Shown here in pieces: positions 29,793 through 37,019 of a DNA stretch of 64,000 nucleotides; within the stretch, counting starts at the first letter, position 1; the number at the start of each line of letters is the position of its first letter. The notes below the pieces were generated by a model, which was not told the origin of the DNA, did no database searches, and saw only the letters and a program-made list of their open reading frames with translations. Source of the DNA: Pandoraea faecigallinarum (GTDB lineage Bacteria > Pseudomonadota > Gammaproteobacteria > Burkholderiales > Burkholderiaceae); contig NZ_CP011807.3 of NCBI RefSeq assembly GCF_001029105.3, positions 2,728,001-2,792,000 of the forward strand. Reading direction: 5' to 3'. Made by a program: the position numbers and the translations under genes.

Positions 29793-29825
29793 AACTCATC
29801 CGTGATTCGCGGCACTGGCTACGCC

Positions 29826-30731
29826 ATGATTTCCTTACGTGATGTCGATCTGAATCTGCTCGTCGTCTTTCATGCTGTCCTTACGCACCGCAGCATCTCT
29901 CAGGCGGCACGCGAGCTGGGGCTGTCGCAACCCGCGGTGAGCAACGGGCTGGCGCGTTTGCGGCAGACGTTCGAAGACGAGCTTTTCACGCGAACGAGCA
30001 CCGGCATGCAGCCCACGCCGTTCGCCGAGGCGCTGGCCGAGCCCGTGTCTGCCGCACTGGCTGGCATTTCCCGGGCCATCAATCACCGTGAGGCGTTCGA
30101 CCCGGCCAGCAGCCAACGTGAATTTACGCTGGCGATGACGGATGTGGGTGAGGTGTACTTCATGCCTGCTCTGATCGACCTGTGCACGCAACTGGCACCG
30201 GGCGTGCGTATCAGCACGGTTCGGGCCACGTTGCCCGATCTGAAAGAGGCGATGGCCGCCGGGCGAATCGATCTCGCCGTGGGCGCATTTGACGATCTGA
30301 CGGGGCCATTCTTCCAGCGGCGGCTGTTTCGTCAGCAATATGTGAGCATGTACCGCATCGGGCATGCGCTCGACACGCCGGGTGCCGGGCTCGCGGAGTT
30401 CAAGGCGGCACGCCACCTGTTCGTTGCCACCGGCGACAATCCCTACGCGCGCGTCAACCAGTTGCTCGCACAGGCCGGTTTCGGGGCAGATGCGAATTAC
30501 TGGGTGCCGCATTTCATCGCCGTGCCATACGTCGTCAGCACGAACGACCTCGTTGTCACCGTCCCGCAGAAGTTTGCCGAACGTGCCGCTGCACCGTTCG
30601 GCCTGCGCTTCGTCAAGCCGCCGTTGCGTCTGCCCGCCCTGCAAACCAATGTGTTCTGGCACCGGCGATACCATCAGGACGCCGGTAACCAATGGCTGCG
30701 TCAATTGATTTCGGAACACTTCGTCGAGTAG
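29826..30731 (+). CDS. LysR family transcriptional regulator (probable hmg regulator)
   Basis: A 301-residue LTTR: N-terminal winged helix with LLVVFHAVLTHRSISQAARELGLSQPAVSNGLARLR, given here in parts (SISQAARELGLSQPAVSNGL is the recognition region), then a periplasmic-binding-like effector domain from about 90. The effector half contains LAMTDVGEVYFMP and GRIDLAVGAFDDL, common in NodD/NahR-type regulators of aromatic catabolism. The ATG at 29826 was preferred to a GTG at 29802 because homology begins MISLRDVDLNLL. Being divergent from hmgA-fahA, it most likely controls that operon, with homogentisate or a related aromatic as effector. Confidence 0.88.
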   Translation: MISLRDVDLNLLVVFHAVLTHRSISQAARELGLSQPAVSNGLARLRQTFEDELFTRTSTGMQPTPFAEALAEPVSAALAGISRAINHREAFDPASSQREFTLAMTDVGEVYFMPALIDLCTQLAPGVRISTVRATLPDLKEAMAAGRIDLAVGAFDDLTGPFFQRRLFRQQYVSMYRIGHALDTPGAGLAEFKAARHLFVATGDNPYARVNQLLAQAGFGADANYWVPHFIAVPYVVSTNDLVVTVPQKFAERAAAPFGLRFVKPPLRLPALQTNVFWHRRYHQDAGNQWLRQLISEHFVE

Positions 30732-30782: not shown

Positions 30783-33700
30783 TTACGCATCGCTCGCGAT
30801 GGCGTGTCCTTGCGCACGCAGCCAGTCGTTCCACGCGGTGTCGAGGGCGTCGAACGCGGCTTCCATCTGATCAACGGAGGCCTGCGGCGCGAGATGCTCG
30901 ACCTGCGCCGCCAGCGAAGCGAGCGAATGCAGTCCGAACGCCATGAAACCGCCGCGCAATCGGTGGGCGGAGTGACGAAGCGTCTCGCGCGATACCTCGG
31001 CCAAGGCAGTGCGGCAATTTGCGATGTCCTGATCGGCGATCTTGACGAACGTATCGAGCATGTCGGAGAGCGGCAGGCGCCAGTCCTTCGGCGAGGCGCT
31101 TTCCGGCGCGGGCTTGGGCTCGTCCTCACCCGGGCGCGATGGCGCGGGCAACGGCGCGATCTCGACGCACAGCGACGGGTAGCGCGCCCGAACCAGTTCG
31201 ATCACACGCAGCAGGGAGCGCGCGTCCACCGGCTTGTACACGACCGCGTCGTACGGCGACTTCGCTTCCCGGTCGTTGCGCAGTGTGACGTCGGCCGTCG
31301 CCACCACGACCGGCACGTGAGGCGCCCGTGCCTTGATCTGCGTTGCCAGCGCGTGGCCGGAGATATGCGGCATGTTGGCGTCGGTGATCACGAGCATGTG
31401 CGACTCCGCATCGAAGGCATCGAGCGCTTCACGCGGATCGTGATAGCAATCGACCATCGCACCGAGCCCTTCCAACTGCCGGGATAGCAGCATGCCGCTG
31501 ATTGGATGATCGTCCGCCACCAGGACATACCAACCGGCGAGCGGCCTCACCCGCGCCTGCGCGCTCGCCGTACCGGGTACCGGCAGTCCGCCGTTGGCCG
31601 CCAGTCCCGGGCGGGGAGTCGAGCCCAGCGCATCCCACAGTTCCGCTTGCTGGAGCAGCGCAACGTCGCGTGGCCATGCCGGTGCACTGCCTGCCGGACG
31701 ATCGACCGGCGTCGCACGCAGCAAGTAGACTTCCGCGCCCGCCATGCCACGCACCGGCCACTCGTCGGCAAACATCAACAGGCCGGCGTCGCGCTCGCGT
31801 CCCGGCCCGGTGGACCAGGACACGGCGTCTTCGTACCTTACGGGGTTGAAACCGGCGCGGCGAATCAGCGCATCGAGATACCAATGGCGCCGCTCCATCG
31901 CGCTGACATAGGCAAACGTGTCATGCGACTCCGGAATCTGCGCTGGCTCGCTGTCGGGCGCCCACGGCAGATGGAGCGTGAAGCGCATCGTCGTACCCTG
32001 CCCCTCCTCGCTGTCGACCGTCAACACGCCACCTAGCATGCCGACGAACTGGTGTGAAATGGCCAGCCCCAACCCCGTGCCGTGCTGCATGCCCGGCTCC
32101 GTCGTGCTCTTGCCGAACGGACGGAACAGGTCGGCCAGATCGGACGCCGCAATGCCGACACCGCTGTCGCTCACCGTGAAGGTCACGTCGCAGCCCTGCA
32201 TGTCGGCACGCACGACCATCGCGCTGAACGCGACATGTCCCTTTTCGGTGAACTTGATGGCATTGCCGACCAGATTGGTCACGACCTGCCCAAGTCGCAG
32301 CGCGTCGGTATGTACCGCGCGCGCAAGCTGCGGGTCGATCATCCAGTCGAGCGTCAGTCCCTGCAACCGTGCGCGTCCCGTGAACGACAAACCGACCGCT
32401 TCCAGTTCCTTGAGCAACGAGCAATCGCGGGAATTCAATTCGAAGCGTCCGACCTGAATGCGCGAGTAGTCGAGCAGATCGTTGATGAGGTCGAGCAGGT
32501 TTCGCGTCGAACTCTCCATCACGTCGACGTAGTATCGGTGGTCGTCGCCGAGGTTCTGTGCACTGAGCAATTCGAGCGACGCCAGCGTGCCGTACAGCGG
32601 CGTACGCATCTCGTGACTGACCGTCGTGAGGAATACGTCCTTGGCGCGATTCGCACTCTCCGCGGCCAGACGCGCCTTGCGTTGCTCCAACTCGAACCGG
32701 CGTTGCTCGGTCACATCGGACAGCGTGCCGATCAGCACCGGTTGCTCGCGAAACACCGTATCGACGAAACTCACCGCGTAGTGACGCTCGCCGGCGTCGT
32801 CGAGCGCGCTGAGCAGGCGACGCACCGGACGCGCGACCACGCCGCTATGCAGTTGCCGATACATGCGCGTCAGTTCGCCGTCGCCAAGGTGCCGCAACAG
32901 ATCGACAGTGCCCGCATAGGCCGGATTGCTCATGACCACGGCCGGCTCGAACGGATCGATGATCGCCATGCCGACGGGCGCGGTCTCGATGAGCGTCTGC
33001 GTGAAGGCGTCGCGCTCAAGCAGCGCGGTCGTACGTTGGCGGGCGGGCTCGATGATGCGCTGACGCATATAGCGCATGCCGGCGTACACGCCAGCGGCAT
33101 ACAACACCAGCAACAACGTGGAGCCAAGCAGCAACGTGGCGTTTTCGCGCAATAATTGCGCCGGGCGCACCGCATACCGCACGAACCACGGCGTGGACGC
33201 CAGCCGTCGCTCGAACACCAGGCGCTGACCGTCGGAGCGCAGCGTCATCTGCGCGCCACCGAACAGCGGCAACGTCACAAGCGTGCGCAGATGGCCTAAC
33301 GACGACAGGGGAAGACCGGCGCTTGCGATGACGAGCCCGTCTTCCGAGATCAACTGAAGGGCTTCGCCGGTGCGTTCCAGATGGCGCATGCGCGGCGGCA
33401 CGATCATCTCAGGGGACATGCTGGTGCCCACATAGAGCACGAGATGCCCGTTCAGATCGCGGATCGGCACGAAGCTCGATACGGTTTTCAGATGCGTGAC
33501 GGGATGTTTGTAGTTGTACGTCCAGAACGGCCCTTCGCTGTTGCCTCGAACGCGGGCGTGATACCGCTCGACCTTGTTGATCTCCGCGAGCATCGCCTGC
33601 GTGTCGCGAGCCAGATCCGCAGGGCTGAAGGCCTCCCGGCCAATGGCGGGCCGATACGTCGCGAAAGCGCCGTCGGCGGAAATGATGAAGGTTTCGTCCT

Positions 33701-34172
33701 GTGCGTCTAGCGGGCTCCAGAAATTGGCGTCGAGCACCATGAGCCGCAAGGTCAGACGCGCCAGCAATGCTGCGCGCGCTTCCGGGATGTCCGCGAGTTT
33801 GACGATCTCGAACTCGCTGTCCCAACCGATACCGCCAATGCGCCGGGCCGTGCCAACCGGCATCGAGATGAGCGGCTTGAGGATCCGGTCGGTCAGCGCC
33901 TGCGTGGCACCGCCGGGACGCGCCGAACTGGCCTGGGTGGCCTGCGCCATGGCGCGGGCCTGTTCGTTGAAGATTTCGAGGTCGCGAATTTCCCGCCCGA
34001 CAGCGGCGAAGAACGATTCCGTCTTCTGCCCGCTTTGCCACAGGGTGCCGAAGAGCGCGTACGAGACCGCCGCCACCCAGACCGACAACCCGAAAAGCAG
34101 TGCAAGCAGGCCGCCAATGCGAAGCAGGCGGCCTGCAATTGCGATGTCACGCGTCATCGTTCTGGCGGGCAT
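30783..34172 (-). CDS. RcsC-like hybrid sensor histidine kinase with fused HPt domain
   Basis: About 1129 residues. Order: membrane helix (18-42), a large periplasmic domain (45-335), a second helix (345-366), a degenerate PAS-like linker (390-490), HisKA with VSHEMRTPLYG (phospho-His H520), a HATPase with NLVGNAIKF, DSGVGI and GTGLGLAISH, a divergent alpha/beta domain (750-855), a receiver with ITDANMPH (D931) and a C-terminal HPt with HRLRGGF (H1070). The PAS, kinase and divergent-domain order matches E. coli RcsC, but here the HPt usually supplied by RcsD is fused. Sequence of the periplasmic domain does not resemble the Venus-flytrap domains of BvgS. The ATG at 34172 follows GGAG closely; a TTG at 34181 is an alternative. 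It lies 29 bp after the response regulator gene. Confidence 0.9.
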   Translation of the reverse strand: MPARTMTRDIAIAGRLLRIGGLLALLFGLSVWVAAVSYALFGTLWQSGQKTESFFAAVGREIRDLEIFNEQARAMAQATQASSARPGGATQALTDRILKPLISMPVGTARRIGGIGWDSEFEIVKLADIPEARAALLARLTLRLMVLDANFWSPLDAQDETFIISADGAFATYRPAIGREAFSPADLARDTQAMLAEINKVERYHARVRGNSEGPFWTYNYKHPVTHLKTVSSFVPIRDLNGHLVLYVGTSMSPEMIVPPRMRHLERTGEALQLISEDGLVIASAGLPLSSLGHLRTLVTLPLFGGAQMTLRSDGQRLVFERRLASTPWFVRYAVRPAQLLRENATLLLGSTLLLVLYAAGVYAGMRYMRQRIIEPARQRTTALLERDAFTQTLIETAPVGMAIIDPFEPAVVMSNPAYAGTVDLLRHLGDGELTRMYRQLHSGVVARPVRRLLSALDDAGERHYAVSFVDTVFREQPVLIGTLSDVTEQRRFELEQRKARLAAESANRAKDVFLTTVSHEMRTPLYGTLASLELLSAQNLGDDHRYYVDVMESSTRNLLDLINDLLDYSRIQVGRFELNSRDCSLLKELEAVGLSFTGRARLQGLTLDWMIDPQLARAVHTDALRLGQVVTNLVGNAIKFTEKGHVAFSAMVVRADMQGCDVTFTVSDSGVGIAASDLADLFRPFGKSTTEPGMQHGTGLGLAISHQFVGMLGGVLTVDSEEGQGTTMRFTLHLPWAPDSEPAQIPESHDTFAYVSAMERRHWYLDALIRRAGFNPVRYEDAVSWSTGPGRERDAGLLMFADEWPVRGMAGAEVYLLRATPVDRPAGSAPAWPRDVALLQQAELWDALGSTPRPGLAANGGLPVPGTASAQARVRPLAGWYVLVADDHPISGMLLSRQLEGLGAMVDCYHDPREALDAFDAESHMLVITDANMPHISGHALATQIKARAPHVPVVVATADVTLRNDREAKSPYDAVVYKPVDARSLLRVIELVRARYPSLCVEIAPLPAPSRPGEDEPKPAPESASPKDWRLPLSDMLDTFVKIADQDIANCRTALAEVSRETLRHSAHRLRGGFMAFGLHSLASLAAQVEHLAPQASVDQMEAAFDALDTAWNDWLRAQGHAIASDA

Positions 34173-34201
34173 AGACTCCAACGTCGGTGAACGCGGCGGA
34201 C

Positions 34202-34876
34202 TCAGGCGGCACTCGGCGCTTCGGCGTCGCCCTCACGCGAGAACTGGACCGGACTTGAGACATGCAGCTTGAACAGTTCCATATCGGTTCTGCAACCCAG
34301 CTTGCACATCGCCATACGCTTCTGATTGTTGATCGTCTTGGCCGAACGCTTGAGCGCGCCCGCAATCTGCGACACGTTCTGGCCATCGAGATACATGCGC
34401 AGCACTTCCATTTCCTTGGGCGAAAGCGGACGCCGGGCCGTCGGCTTGCGACGCATCTGTTCTTCCAGGATCTGTTCCGCACGCCCGCCGCGGTAGCTCA
34501 TGCCGCGACGGCAACGCTCCACGCACACCGTGATCTCACGCAGATCGTCGGACTTCGTCATCACGCCCAGCACACCGCAACTGTCCAGTGCATGAATGAT
34601 CGCGGGCTGTTCGATCGAGGTGAACACGATGATCTTCACGTCGGGGTACTTGCGCCGAACCCGGTTGATCATGACGAGGCCGTCGCCGAACGCCCCGCCC
34701 GGCATGCAGTAGTCGGTGATCAGGACGTCGACCGAATTCGTCTCGAGCGCCTTGAACAATTCCGTCGAATTGGAAACGGGAGGCAGAACGTGAAAACCCG
34801 GGTCCGGGGAAAGCATTTCACGCAGCGTCGAGGCCACGATCGGGTGATCGTCGGCAATCAGAATCTTTACCATCAT
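34202..34876 (-). CDS. RcsB-like response regulator (NarL/FixJ family)
   Basis: A 224-residue two-domain regulator. The receiver has IADDHP, phospho-acceptor D55 in VLITDYCMPGG, and GDGLVMINRVRRKYPDVKIIVFT (two parts), which aligns well by eye with RcsB (VLITDLSMPG, YGDGITLI). The LuxR-type HTH has LSPKEMEVLRMYLDGQ and SAKTINNQKRMAMCKLG, close to RcsB LSPKESEVLR and SIKTISSQKKSAMMKLG. The recognition helix is therefore nearly conserved, implying similar DNA boxes. Two adjacent ATGs (34876, 34873) are possible starts; AAGGATCC is upstream. It is placed between the lipoprotein and hybrid kinase genes. Confidence 0.92.
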   Translation of the reverse strand: MMVKILIADDHPIVASTLREMLSPDPGFHVLPPVSNSTELFKALETNSVDVLITDYCMPGGAFGDGLVMINRVRRKYPDVKIIVFTSIEQPAIIHALDSCGVLGVMTKSDDLREITVCVERCRRGMSYRGGRAEQILEEQMRRKPTARRPLSPKEMEVLRMYLDGQNVSQIAGALKRSAKTINNQKRMAMCKLGCRTDMELFKLHVSSPVQFSREGDAEAPSAA

Positions 34877-35081
34877 TTGCAGGATCCTTTTAAAAGAAGT
34901 CAGCCGTGGGCGCGCGCGATCCTTCGCCGTGTCTACGCGTCATGGCTTCCCAAAAGAGGAATGTGCGTCCTGGGGACGCACGCGTTGGTCACTCGGACGT
35001 GACCGCATTGCTGCTGGGCGACGATGCGGGACCCGACAGTCCGGCGCACAGGCCGCTCGCGGCCTCGCCCCGCTGCCTGCG

Positions 35082-35675
35082 CTATCCGGCGCTGCCGACG
35101 GTATCGCCCGCTCCGGGGCCGTCGACGGTGGTCCACGCCGAGCACGTCTTGTGCCCTGTCAACCGGGATGTGCCCTCGCCGATGGCCGGCTTGACACAGT
35201 AACGAATGCGAACACCGCGCAACCCTGCCGACGGCATCATTTCCCGCGCTCGACCGACCACACGAATACGCGTCGGTCCGGCGGCTGCCTCCCACAGATG
35301 CACGCTTTCGGTCTCGGGCCAGTCCGCCATCCATCGATACGTTCCACTCACGACGATGCCGACCTGCGGCGTTCCACTCATCTTCACTGCTGCCGCCACC
35401 GGCCGCATTCGCGTTTCGACTTCTCGCGGTGACGCAACCGGAGGCTCCATCGGCGCCGCCGACGCCCCCTCGCTCCCCGATTCGAAAGCGAGGCCAGTCG
35501 CGCTCGCCGTGGACGCCTTGTATTCGCTGCATCCCGCGAGCAGCGCCATGGTCAGCACGCCGCTCAGACTTATCAGTGCCGTCACGGCGCGCCGCCCTAT
35601 CACTTGCCTGAAACGCAGGCGACGGGACGAACTGGGCAGGAAAGAGTCAACGTGTGTTGGGGTCATCTGGTCCAT
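35082..35675 (-). CDS. Hypothetical lipoprotein upstream of the Rcs-like genes
   Basis: A 197-residue protein with a basic N terminus, a hydrophobic stretch (ALISLSGVLTMALLAGC) and a lipobox LAGC at about 47-50, then a disordered Ala/Ser/Pro/Glu-rich linker and a small C-terminal domain containing two cysteines (RIRYCVKPA and GHKTCSAW). Outer-membrane sorting is plausible because residue +2 is Ser. I do not recognise the family; it does not match RcsF beyond being a lipoprotein with a possible disulfide. Its stop is 205 bp before the RcsB-like gene on the same strand. Starts at 35675 and 35666 are both ATG; neither has a strong ribosome site. Confidence 0.7.
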   Translation of the reverse strand: MDQMTPTHVDSFLPSSSRRLRFRQVIGRRAVTALISLSGVLTMALLAGCSEYKASTASATGLAFESGSEGASAAPMEPPVASPREVETRMRPVAAAVKMSGTPQVGIVVSGTYRWMADWPETESVHLWEAAAGPTRIRVVGRAREMMPSAGLRGVRIRYCVKPAIGEGTSRLTGHKTCSAWTTVDGPGAGDTVGSAG

Positions 35676-36140
35676 TACCAGTCGTTTCGCCGCGTGACAG
35701 TCAAACGTTACGCGTCGTTTTTACGACCAGCGGAAATATAGGATAAATCTACAAAACCCTACCGTTTTGGAACTCTTTATAGGAAACATCCTAGTCCAAA
35801 TTAGGAGGATTACCGTTCGCAATTTGCGCACCAAACGCGCCTTACGACAATTCGATGCGGAAATACCTCAAATAACGTAGCATCAACGCGCATGCAGCGT
35901 TCTGATGGACAGCGATGTGAAGAAAAGATTCATTTGAAAGACGACAGAAGTGCGGACTTCGGCGCAGGCGCCGAACGATGCGCGAGTTTCGTCAACGCAA
36001 AACTTCACTCGAAAGACGTTGCGAATATCGAGGGATATGCGTTTGGGGAGTACGTATTGCGGCGGATTCGCTTTTCAGCGCGCTGACGAACGGCGGCGGA
36101 TTACGGCGCAATTGGCCACAGGAAGCGCGTCGACAAAAAC
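35676..36140. other. 465 bp AT-richer intergenic region
   Basis: This interval separates the lipoprotein gene (leftward) from the 3' end of the TauE gene. Positions 35730-35830 are clearly AT-richer than the surroundings and hold the RcsB-box-like palindromes. A short frame at 35892-36086 (64 codons) has no ribosome site or homology and is probably not a gene. No terminator was recognised for TauE. Confidence 0.5.
35735..35812 (-). promoter_or_regulatory. Putative promoter with RcsB/BvgA-type palindromes
   Basis: TAGGAAACATCCTA (35780-35793) is a near-perfect inverted repeat (TAGGA-N4-TCCTA) resembling the RcsAB box TAAGAATATTCCTA and the heptad pair recognised by BvgA (TTTCCTA). A second, looser copy TAGGATAAATCTA (35739-35751) lies 41 bp away, about four helical turns, and a half site TAGGAGGATTA is at 35802-35812. 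On the minus strand a TATATT -10 candidate (35735-35740) has no good -35, as expected for an activator-dependent promoter. The arrangement lies about 60-135 bp upstream of the lipoprotein gene. Confidence 0.5.
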
Positions 36141-37019
36141 TCAGACACCGAACGCTTTAACCAACATGCCCAGCGCGACGGCCGCCATCAGCGTGGAGAA
36201 AAGCTGTTGAAGCCGCGAGGCCGCCAATCGCGGCGCGAGGGCGCGACCGAGCAACATTCCCACAACGGCCCCGGCAACGAACGTCCAGCCTTGCGCTCCC
36301 GGATGCATGCCGTGCCACCATGCGTTCGCCACGGTCCCGGCAGAGATCAGCGCAATCACGAAAAGCGATGTCGCGACGACGCCATGCACCGTGATGTCGG
36401 TAAATCGCCGCAGCGCGGGCACGATGACGAACCCGCCTCCGACGCCGAGCAATCCCGAAGCGAATCCCGACACGGCGCCGATCACACTGAGCGTGCCCGC
36501 AACGCGCCGCGTCCAGCGCAAGCGTCCCGTGGACGGATCCATGCGGCATGGGGGCAACGGCAGCGATGTCGACGATAGCGGTGCTGGGGGCGACGACGTA
36601 TCGCCCGGGTTCGCCCCCATGCCACGCCCCTTCCCACAGGCGCCGCGCGAGGCGCGGTACATGCGCGCCGCAACGATGAGCATCGCCGCGGCGAAAAGCC
36701 CGACGAGCCACCGCTCGGGCAACCGATGCGCCATCCAGCTACCCAGCGGCGCGAGGCAAACGCCGATGCCCGCCATGAGCAACGCCGCGCGATAGCGCAC
36801 GATCCCGGCGCGCAGTCCTTGCGCACTGCCGACCGCCGCACTTGCGCCTACGGCCAGCAAGGCCACGGGCCCCGCCTGCGGCACCCCCCATCCCAGTCCG
36901 AATACCAGCGCCGGGACCGCGAAAATCCCGCCACCGGCGCCAGTCAATCCCAAAACGAGACCGACGGCAGCGCCAAGTAAGGCGGCCGTCGGAGAAACAC
37001 TCGAGAGATCGGGAAACAT
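36141..37019 (-). CDS. TauE/SafE family sulfite exporter-like permease
   Basis: A 292-residue inner-membrane protein with the internally repeated TauE/SafE architecture: GAAVGLVLGLTGAGGGIFAVPAL in the first half (two parts: GLVLGLTGAGGG, IFAVPAL) and GFASGLLGVGGGFVIVPAL in the second. About eight helices are predicted. A hydrophilic insertion (about 125-165, Ser/Pro-rich) separates the halves and is longer than usual. These permeases export sulfite, sulfoacetate or other organosulfur anions; the substrate is unknown here. The start codon at 37019 is clear, but no operon partner is adjacent. Confidence 0.87.
   Translation of the reverse strand: MFPDLSSVSPTAALLGAAVGLVLGLTGAGGGIFAVPALVFGLGWGVPQAGPVALLAVGASAAVGSAQGLRAGIVRYRAALLMAGIGVCLAPLGSWMAHRLPERWLVGLFAAAMLIVAARMYRASRGACGKGRGMGANPGDTSSPPAPLSSTSLPLPPCRMDPSTGRLRWTRRVAGTLSVIGAVSGFASGLLGVGGGFVIVPALRRFTDITVHGVVATSLFVIALISAGTVANAWWHGMHPGAQGWTFVAGAVVGMLLGRALAPRLAASRLQQLFSTLMAAVALGMLVKAFGV

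Follow-up and report, generated by a model that had tools for sequence, protein, structure and literature searches.

A candidate RcsC/RcsB-type phosphorelay with a linked lipoprotein gene and a conserved promoter box in Pandoraea

In Pseudomonas aeruginosa PA14, RcsC is described as an unorthodox sensor that carries its own histidine phosphotransfer (HPt) domain (PMC3842833). The evidence given for that system includes a weak, significant two-hybrid interaction between the RcsC HPt and the RcsB receiver, activity that was abolished when the HPt His was mutated in a phosphatase-defective T506A background, and an RcsAB-like site that is required for function of the cupD promoter (PMC3842833). 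A survey of tripartite kinases includes BvgS, EvgS, ArcB, and TorS (PMC4558063); given this survey and the P. aeruginosa RcsC with its own HPt, a relay of this type is already known. With respect to DNA recognition, the RcsAB box is reported as a 7-7 inverted repeat, TAAGAAT-ATTCTTA (PMC7298118), a half-site bound by RcsB is reported as TTAGGAA, and base contacts in the RcsB-DNA structure are attributed to K180 and S184 (PMC5829831). Here, an operon in a 64-kb stretch of the 5.7 Mb genome of Pandoraea faecigallinarum (G000:C1:2728001-2792000, hereafter the window; positions without a prefix are those of this stretch) is described that encodes a lipoprotein, an RcsB-like response regulator, and an RcsC-like kinase. 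On the strength of domain order, conserved phosphorelay residues, similarity to RcsB, RcsC, and RcsD, gene linkage, and a conserved box, the operon probably encodes an envelope-sensing RcsC/RcsB-type phosphorelay of Pandoraea that has its HPt built into the kinase and that acts on its own promoter. The new leads are the linked lipoprotein and the conserved Rcs-like box, and to these are added the strict co-occurrence of lipoprotein and kinase, hairpins in an intergenic gap, and enrichment of the box at Burkholderiales loci.

The operon and its conservation in Pandoraea

An earlier note on this DNA had placed three genes on the same strand, and all three open reading frames (ORFs) were found, on the minus strand, in the order lipoprotein, regulator, kinase. 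The lipoprotein gene occupies 35082..35675, and many of its homologues begin at the equivalent of codon 4 (ATG 35666). A gap of 205 bp separates it from the regulator gene (34202..34876), which is followed after 20 bp by the kinase gene (30783..34181), an ORF of 1132 codons from a TTG; translation more likely begins at an in-frame ATG at 34172. Among named genomes, the nearest relatives at this locus belong to Pandoraea. Among Pandoraea loci, the kinase gene was downstream of the regulator gene in 19 of 19 and the lipoprotein gene was upstream of it in all 18 that have upstream sequence (locus L010, cut by a contig end, falls outside these 18), indicating that the arrangement is not due to chance.

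At thresholds of expectation value (E) 1e-5 for the lipoprotein and 1e-150 for the kinase, both were present in the same 28 of 32 Pandoraea genomes and both were missing from the other four (G194, G686, G688, and G693). The two matches share a contig in 27 of these 28 genomes, with 781-984 bp between them, and fall on separate contigs in G689. Linkage of the lipoprotein gene in relatives had been set beforehand as one of the points on which the proposed relay could fail, and the gene proved to be linked. The lipoprotein matches in G666, G674, and G677 were printed with one stop in range, perhaps the terminal stop. In G683, the kinase match (G683:C1:2468517-2471905) consists of two overlapping pieces, which suggests a frameshift; the lipoprotein match there is stop-free.

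The regulator, the kinase, and their nearest relatives

The regulator combines a receiver with a LuxR/GerE helix-turn-helix domain, both above the Pfam cut-off, and Asp55 is its predicted phospho-acceptor. Its proposed likeness to RcsB was borne out: RcsB was the best NCBIfam model (138 bits versus 80 for the next) and the best PDB chain (E 3.1e-33, versus 5.5e-14 for EvgA), and 74 of 215 aligned positions are identical to E. coli RcsB. Conservation extends to the phosphorylation-pocket residues D9, D10, D55, T86, and K108, to the DNA-contact residues R177, K180, T181, Q185, and K186 (PMC5829831), and to K192, with S183 and S184 replaced by Asn. In a midpoint-rooted tree of 37 regulators, in which the Burkholderiales rows were picked by similarity to the query, favouring the RcsB clade, the Pandoraea rows fall on a long branch inside the E. 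coli RcsB clade (99/98), apart from EvgA, FimZ, UvrY, and NarL, and E. coli RcsB itself pairs with another Burkholderiales row (97/92), not with that of Pandoraea. Elsewhere in the same genome, a second RcsB-like regulator is encoded (locus L083, 9569-10207; G000:C1, 4.01 Mb) that, at 188 bits, is nearer to RcsB than that of the window; no RcsC-like kinase ORF was found in the 19 kb fetched around it.

In the kinase, HisKA (residues 514-576), HATPase_c (626-738), receiver (886-994), and Hpt (1040-1116) domains were all above the Pfam cut-off. The phosphorelay residues are present as His523 in HisKA, Asp934 in the receiver, and His1073 in the HPt, and Lys983 is also present in the receiver. RcsC was the best NCBIfam model (stretch 317-994, 288 bits, with TorS at 286), in agreement with the RcsC-like identity claimed earlier, and some Pandoraea copies are already named RcsC in public annotation. 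Compared with enteric RcsC by hhalign, the receiver reached 98.7% and the periplasmic domains 0.5%, that is, nothing. The linker, which had been called PAS-like, matches the enteric RcsC linker as a profile (hhalign 91%); for the PAS label itself, Pfam offered only PAS_8 at E 0.17. Hydrophobic segments at 25-43 and 350-368 flank the periplasmic domain, for which Pfam gave no match in the window's kinase, nor did Pfam match a solute-binding sensor domain in that protein. Of 15 Pandoraea periplasmic domains scanned, three touched dCache_1 (best E 0.0005), the window's copy not being among them.

The claim of a fused, RcsD-type HPt also found support. Beyond the Pfam match, the HPt of RcsD was the closest of five E. 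coli HPts to which that of the kinase was compared singly (75.5%, E 2.4e-5, followed by EvgS at 5.4e-4, TorS at 1.2e-3, ArcB at 0.043, and BarA at 0.1), and its score was equalled by none of 150 column shuffles. Between the HATPase and the receiver lies an alpha/beta domain (residues 740-885; 31527..31964, minus strand) with a mean column identity of 76% across 20 Pandoraea sequences. The earlier note had called this a divergent alpha/beta domain and had proposed a profile search against the RcsC ABL family, a relationship on which the evidence is divided. In favour is a weak hhalign match to the RcsC ABL (E 0.0032, 10% probability, 65 columns), the score of which was reached by none of 150 column shuffles; the match to the single E. 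coli ABL reached only E 0.053. Against it, the Pfam RcsC-ABL model PF09456 had no match in the kinase, in its own genome, or in 300 Burkholderiales genomes (the E. coli control matched), and the predicted fold (mean predicted local distance difference test score 60) resembles receivers, which are its best structural matches and almost all of the 50 matches listed.

Promoter box, hairpins, and the lipoprotein

Upstream of the lipoprotein gene, at 35780..35793 on the minus strand, stands the Rcs-type inverted repeat TAGGATGTTTCCTA, which is proposed as a candidate binding site of the regulator. The weight of the evidence for this box rests on its place and its conservation. An alignment of 19 Pandoraea upstream regions revealed two strongly conserved blocks, the first of which contains TAGGATGTTTCCTA; across the 14-nt windows that overlap the box, the majority base averages a frequency of 0.955, the median being 0.70. 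In the same alignment, conservation of 14-nt windows upstream of the gene peaks (0.985) within a second element, GTAGATTTATCCTATATTTC (35733..35752, minus strand), which may be a -10 region or a second half-site. When the positions of box and lipoprotein matches were compared by hand, 22 of the 28 operon-bearing genomes proved to have TAGGA-N4-TCCTA at a distance of 105-124 bp upstream of the lipoprotein match, 21 of them as TAGGATRTTTCCTA and one as a variant (G683). The genome under study holds one perfect copy of TAGGATRTTTCCTA, and at one mismatch the box has this single match within the window, where shuffles average 0.10. Elsewhere, at G000:C1:4509379-4509392 (locus L117, 5880), a CorA-like and an MscS-like gene (both by Pfam) diverge from a region that contains another Rcs-type box, the perfect palindrome TAGGAATATTCCTA. 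Four of 32 Pandoraea genomes have exactly this site at the corresponding position, and an RcsB-like regulator may have a further target here.

Regulators with RcsB-like matches at E 1e-30 or better were found in at least 15 of 300 Burkholderiales genomes, own genome included, the count being a lower bound because at most nine candidates per genome were scored. Of the 20 neighbourhoods of such genes that were fetched, one belongs to the own genome; the other 19 come from 13 of the remaining 14 genomes. An RcsC-like kinase ORF was present in 8 of the 19 other neighbourhoods, for a total of nine kinases, and seven of these nine have an HPt-like C-terminus with a His, as judged by eye on the alignment. 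The pattern TARGA-N4-TCYTA, fixed before these 19 loci (356,519 bp) were scanned, yielded seven sites in four loci and none in the other 15. It topped 60 permutations of its half-sites (mean 0.62, itself included), the ranks of which are not independent because some permutations overlap the same sites, and the half-sites at ten other spacers from 0 to 10 yielded no site in the same loci.

Several individual loci carry related arrangements. A second RcsC-like kinase of the own genome (L119, 3758-7769; G000:C1, 0.99 Mb), 1126 amino acids long, has an RcsB-like regulator just upstream; its C-terminus is HPt-like by alignment and is not listed by Pfam at E 0.001. In G285, of the same family, locus L092 (6890-10394) pairs an RcsB-like regulator with a BvgS-like kinase that carries both an HPt and a solute-binding sensor domain, and Rcs-type boxes lie upstream of both genes. 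Stand-alone RcsD-HPt-like ORFs are present in L102 (8464-8853, directly upstream of an RcsB-like gene) and in L095 (3027-3365).

The gap between the lipoprotein and regulator genes contains tandem hairpins (34935..35010, minus strand) that may act as a partial terminator or attenuator. Across 18 sequences (16 distinct; L013, which is without the stretch, and L010 were left out), 95.2% of cells are paired, a value as high in 1 of 500 shuffles, in a structure that was drawn from the same sequences as were tested. Pairs changed on both sides number four, which was reached by none of 500 shuffles, and the number of further pair types was reached by 77 of 500. A terminator-like site lies at 34981-34963; the gap region holds four such sites versus 4.7 in shuffles.

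The lipoprotein begins with a hydrophobic signal-like segment, followed by the lipobox LLAGC (Cys49) and then Ser. Under the Lol rule, a lipidated Cys followed by Ser indicates transfer to the outer membrane, and the protein is thus a predicted outer-membrane lipoprotein. When the window's copy was aligned with 32 homologues, some rows being without the N-terminus, the lipobox was seen to be followed by a variable linker and then by a conserved C-terminal domain (about 90-187), in which Cys160 and Cys178 are invariant and may form a disulphide. There are 34 homologues, and all of those listed with an organism name come from Pandoraea. Pfam found no domain in the window's lipoprotein and weak scattered matches only among 33 members, and no domain or fold match ties the protein to signalling. 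The suggestion that it stands where RcsF would act gained no further support: its likeness to RcsF ends at the lipobox, and the Pfam models for RcsF (PF16358) and IgaA (PF07095) matched none of the 32 Pandoraea genomes, both E. coli controls being matched, so that this placement stays a reading from position.

Mechanism, rival explanations, and known systems

In the phosphorelay favoured here, the kinase would autophosphorylate at His523 and pass the phosphoryl group to Asp934 of its own receiver, to His1073 of its own HPt, and on to Asp55 of the regulator. The phosphorylated regulator would bind the box at 35780-35793 and control its own operon from the lipoprotein promoter, with the gap hairpins lowering expression of regulator and kinase relative to the lipoprotein. 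The lipoprotein, lipid-anchored in the outer membrane, would present its small cysteine-bearing domain to the periplasm and would most likely act upstream of the kinase, as a candidate sensor or feedback partner; this role is the most tentative part of the scheme. If the lipoprotein is the sensor, the operon would represent a minimal Rcs-like envelope relay, a useful model for the question of how a lipoprotein of the outer membrane controls a kinase in the absence of IgaA, and an instance of independent recruitment of a lipoprotein to this task. The fuller version, in which a self-contained, autoregulated relay is gained and lost as a unit in Pandoraea and an unrelated lipoprotein independently took on an RcsF-like sensor role without IgaA, is possible and, in our view, rather doubtful. 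Even if the lipoprotein is not a sensor, the boxes at Burkholderiales loci suggest that the RcsB recognition code is in use far outside the enterics, and an Rcs-type box near RcsB-like genes could allow prediction of regulons in this order.

Several observations weigh against the autoregulated phosphorelay. The NCBIfam cut-off for RcsB is not reached by the regulator (138 of 235 bits), nor is the curated cut-off for RcsC reached by the kinase (288 of 920 bits), and placement of the kinase in the RcsC group is weak (80/79) in a poorly resolved tree. The perfect repeat is missing from 6 of the 28 operon-bearing genomes (G672, G678, G679, G682, G685, and G691). The own genome has 8 sites for the exact box at two mismatches, versus 8 control sites, and 3 for TARGANNNNTCYTA, versus 4 for its control; with counts no higher than controls, no wider regulon is visible and there is no genome-wide enrichment. 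Moreover, the other RcsB-like regulator of this genome could be the one that binds the box. Finally, co-variation of the lipoprotein with the periplasmic domain did not exceed its co-variation with the kinase core (partial r 0.015 over 19 rows, 0.085 without L020). This last result would fit a lipoprotein that is instead an output, the main target of the relay at the head of its own operon, with the kinase sensing through its own periplasmic domain. Such a role would also fit a box that sits in the lipoprotein promoter, hairpins with compensatory changes that divide the lipoprotein gene from the regulator gene, and the weak dCache_1 signal (3 of 15, window's copy excluded), which hints at direct ligand sensing. 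However, sensors are often autoregulated together with their regulators, and the perfect co-occurrence fits a sensor or an output alike; we regard an output role as a live possibility that falls somewhat short of probable.

The remaining explanations concern ancestry and chance. In one of them, a NarL-family regulator is served by a generic tripartite kinase of the BvgS/EvgS kind, and the resemblance to Rcs comes only from the shared ancestry of all such systems. A system of this sort would share its order of kinase, receiver, and HPt with BvgS, EvgS, ArcB, and TorS (PMC4558063), and would account for the near-equal TorS and RcsC scores (286 and 288 bits), the poorly resolved kinase tree, and a middle domain with a receiver-like predicted fold. 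It is nevertheless unlikely, given a regulator nearer to RcsB than to EvgA, FimZ, UvrY, or NarL, an HPt nearest to that of RcsD among five, a linker that matches that of RcsC, and a promoter box of Rcs geometry. The earlier note had gone further and described a collapsed enteric Rcs, in which the RcsD HPt would have moved onto the RcsC of an enteric-type relay and the linked lipoprotein would replace RcsF. Its Rcs-like relay stands, and RcsC, RcsB, and RcsD are indeed the nearest E. coli relatives among those compared, but an enteric origin and the direction of collapse do not follow, because the partners of E. coli RcsB in the tree are other Burkholderiales regulators and not that of Pandoraea (97/92), HPt-bearing RcsC-like kinases recur, and P. 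aeruginosa provides a precedent. Since seven of nine RcsC-like kinases near other RcsB-like genes end HPt-like, fusion may be the older state; with the RcsF, IgaA, and ABL models of Pfam also without a match, a true collapse seems distinctly improbable. More improbable still is that the lipoprotein is an unrelated, hitchhiking neighbour: although neither a domain nor a fold match connects it with signalling, its joint presence with the kinase in 28 and joint absence in 4 of 32 genomes, its position on the same strand, and the Rcs-type box in its promoter argue otherwise.

Among known systems, the RcsC-RcsB pair of P. aeruginosa PA14, likened here by its description, has an HPt-bearing RcsC-type kinase and an RcsB-like regulator, and in Pandoraea a HisKA-HATPase-receiver-HPt kinase likewise adjoins a regulator of the RcsB clade. 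The PA14 system controls the cupD fimbrial cluster and involves a second kinase, PvrS (PvrS-PvrR), whereas the Pandoraea operon is flanked by a TauE-type gene upstream (36141-37019) and a convergent LysR gene downstream (29802-30731; both by Pfam); the parts of the PA14 report drawn on here mention no lipoprotein gene (PMC3842833). Enterobacterial Rcs (RcsF-IgaA-RcsC-RcsD-RcsB) supplies the nearest characterised relatives compared for the Pandoraea kinase, HPt, and regulator, and the lipoprotein has an RcsF-like layout of lipobox, linker, and cysteine-bearing C-terminal domain; the differences are that in Pandoraea the HPt is fused to the kinase, that the Pfam models of RcsF, IgaA, and ABL are without a match, and that the lipoprotein is unlike RcsF beyond the lipobox. 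A pair in another Burkholderiales genome (locus L084) has the same gene types and an HPt-like C-terminus, with no lipoprotein-like ORF within 5 kb by the pattern used, and its kinase, at 505 bits for RcsC, is much nearer to RcsC than that of Pandoraea; its regulator scores 183 bits for RcsB. BvgAS and EvgAS also pair a kinase with a NarL-family regulator. The Pandoraea system resembles them in its tripartite kinase (PMC4558063) and differs in that its regulator and HPt are nearer to RcsB and RcsD than to EvgA and EvgS.

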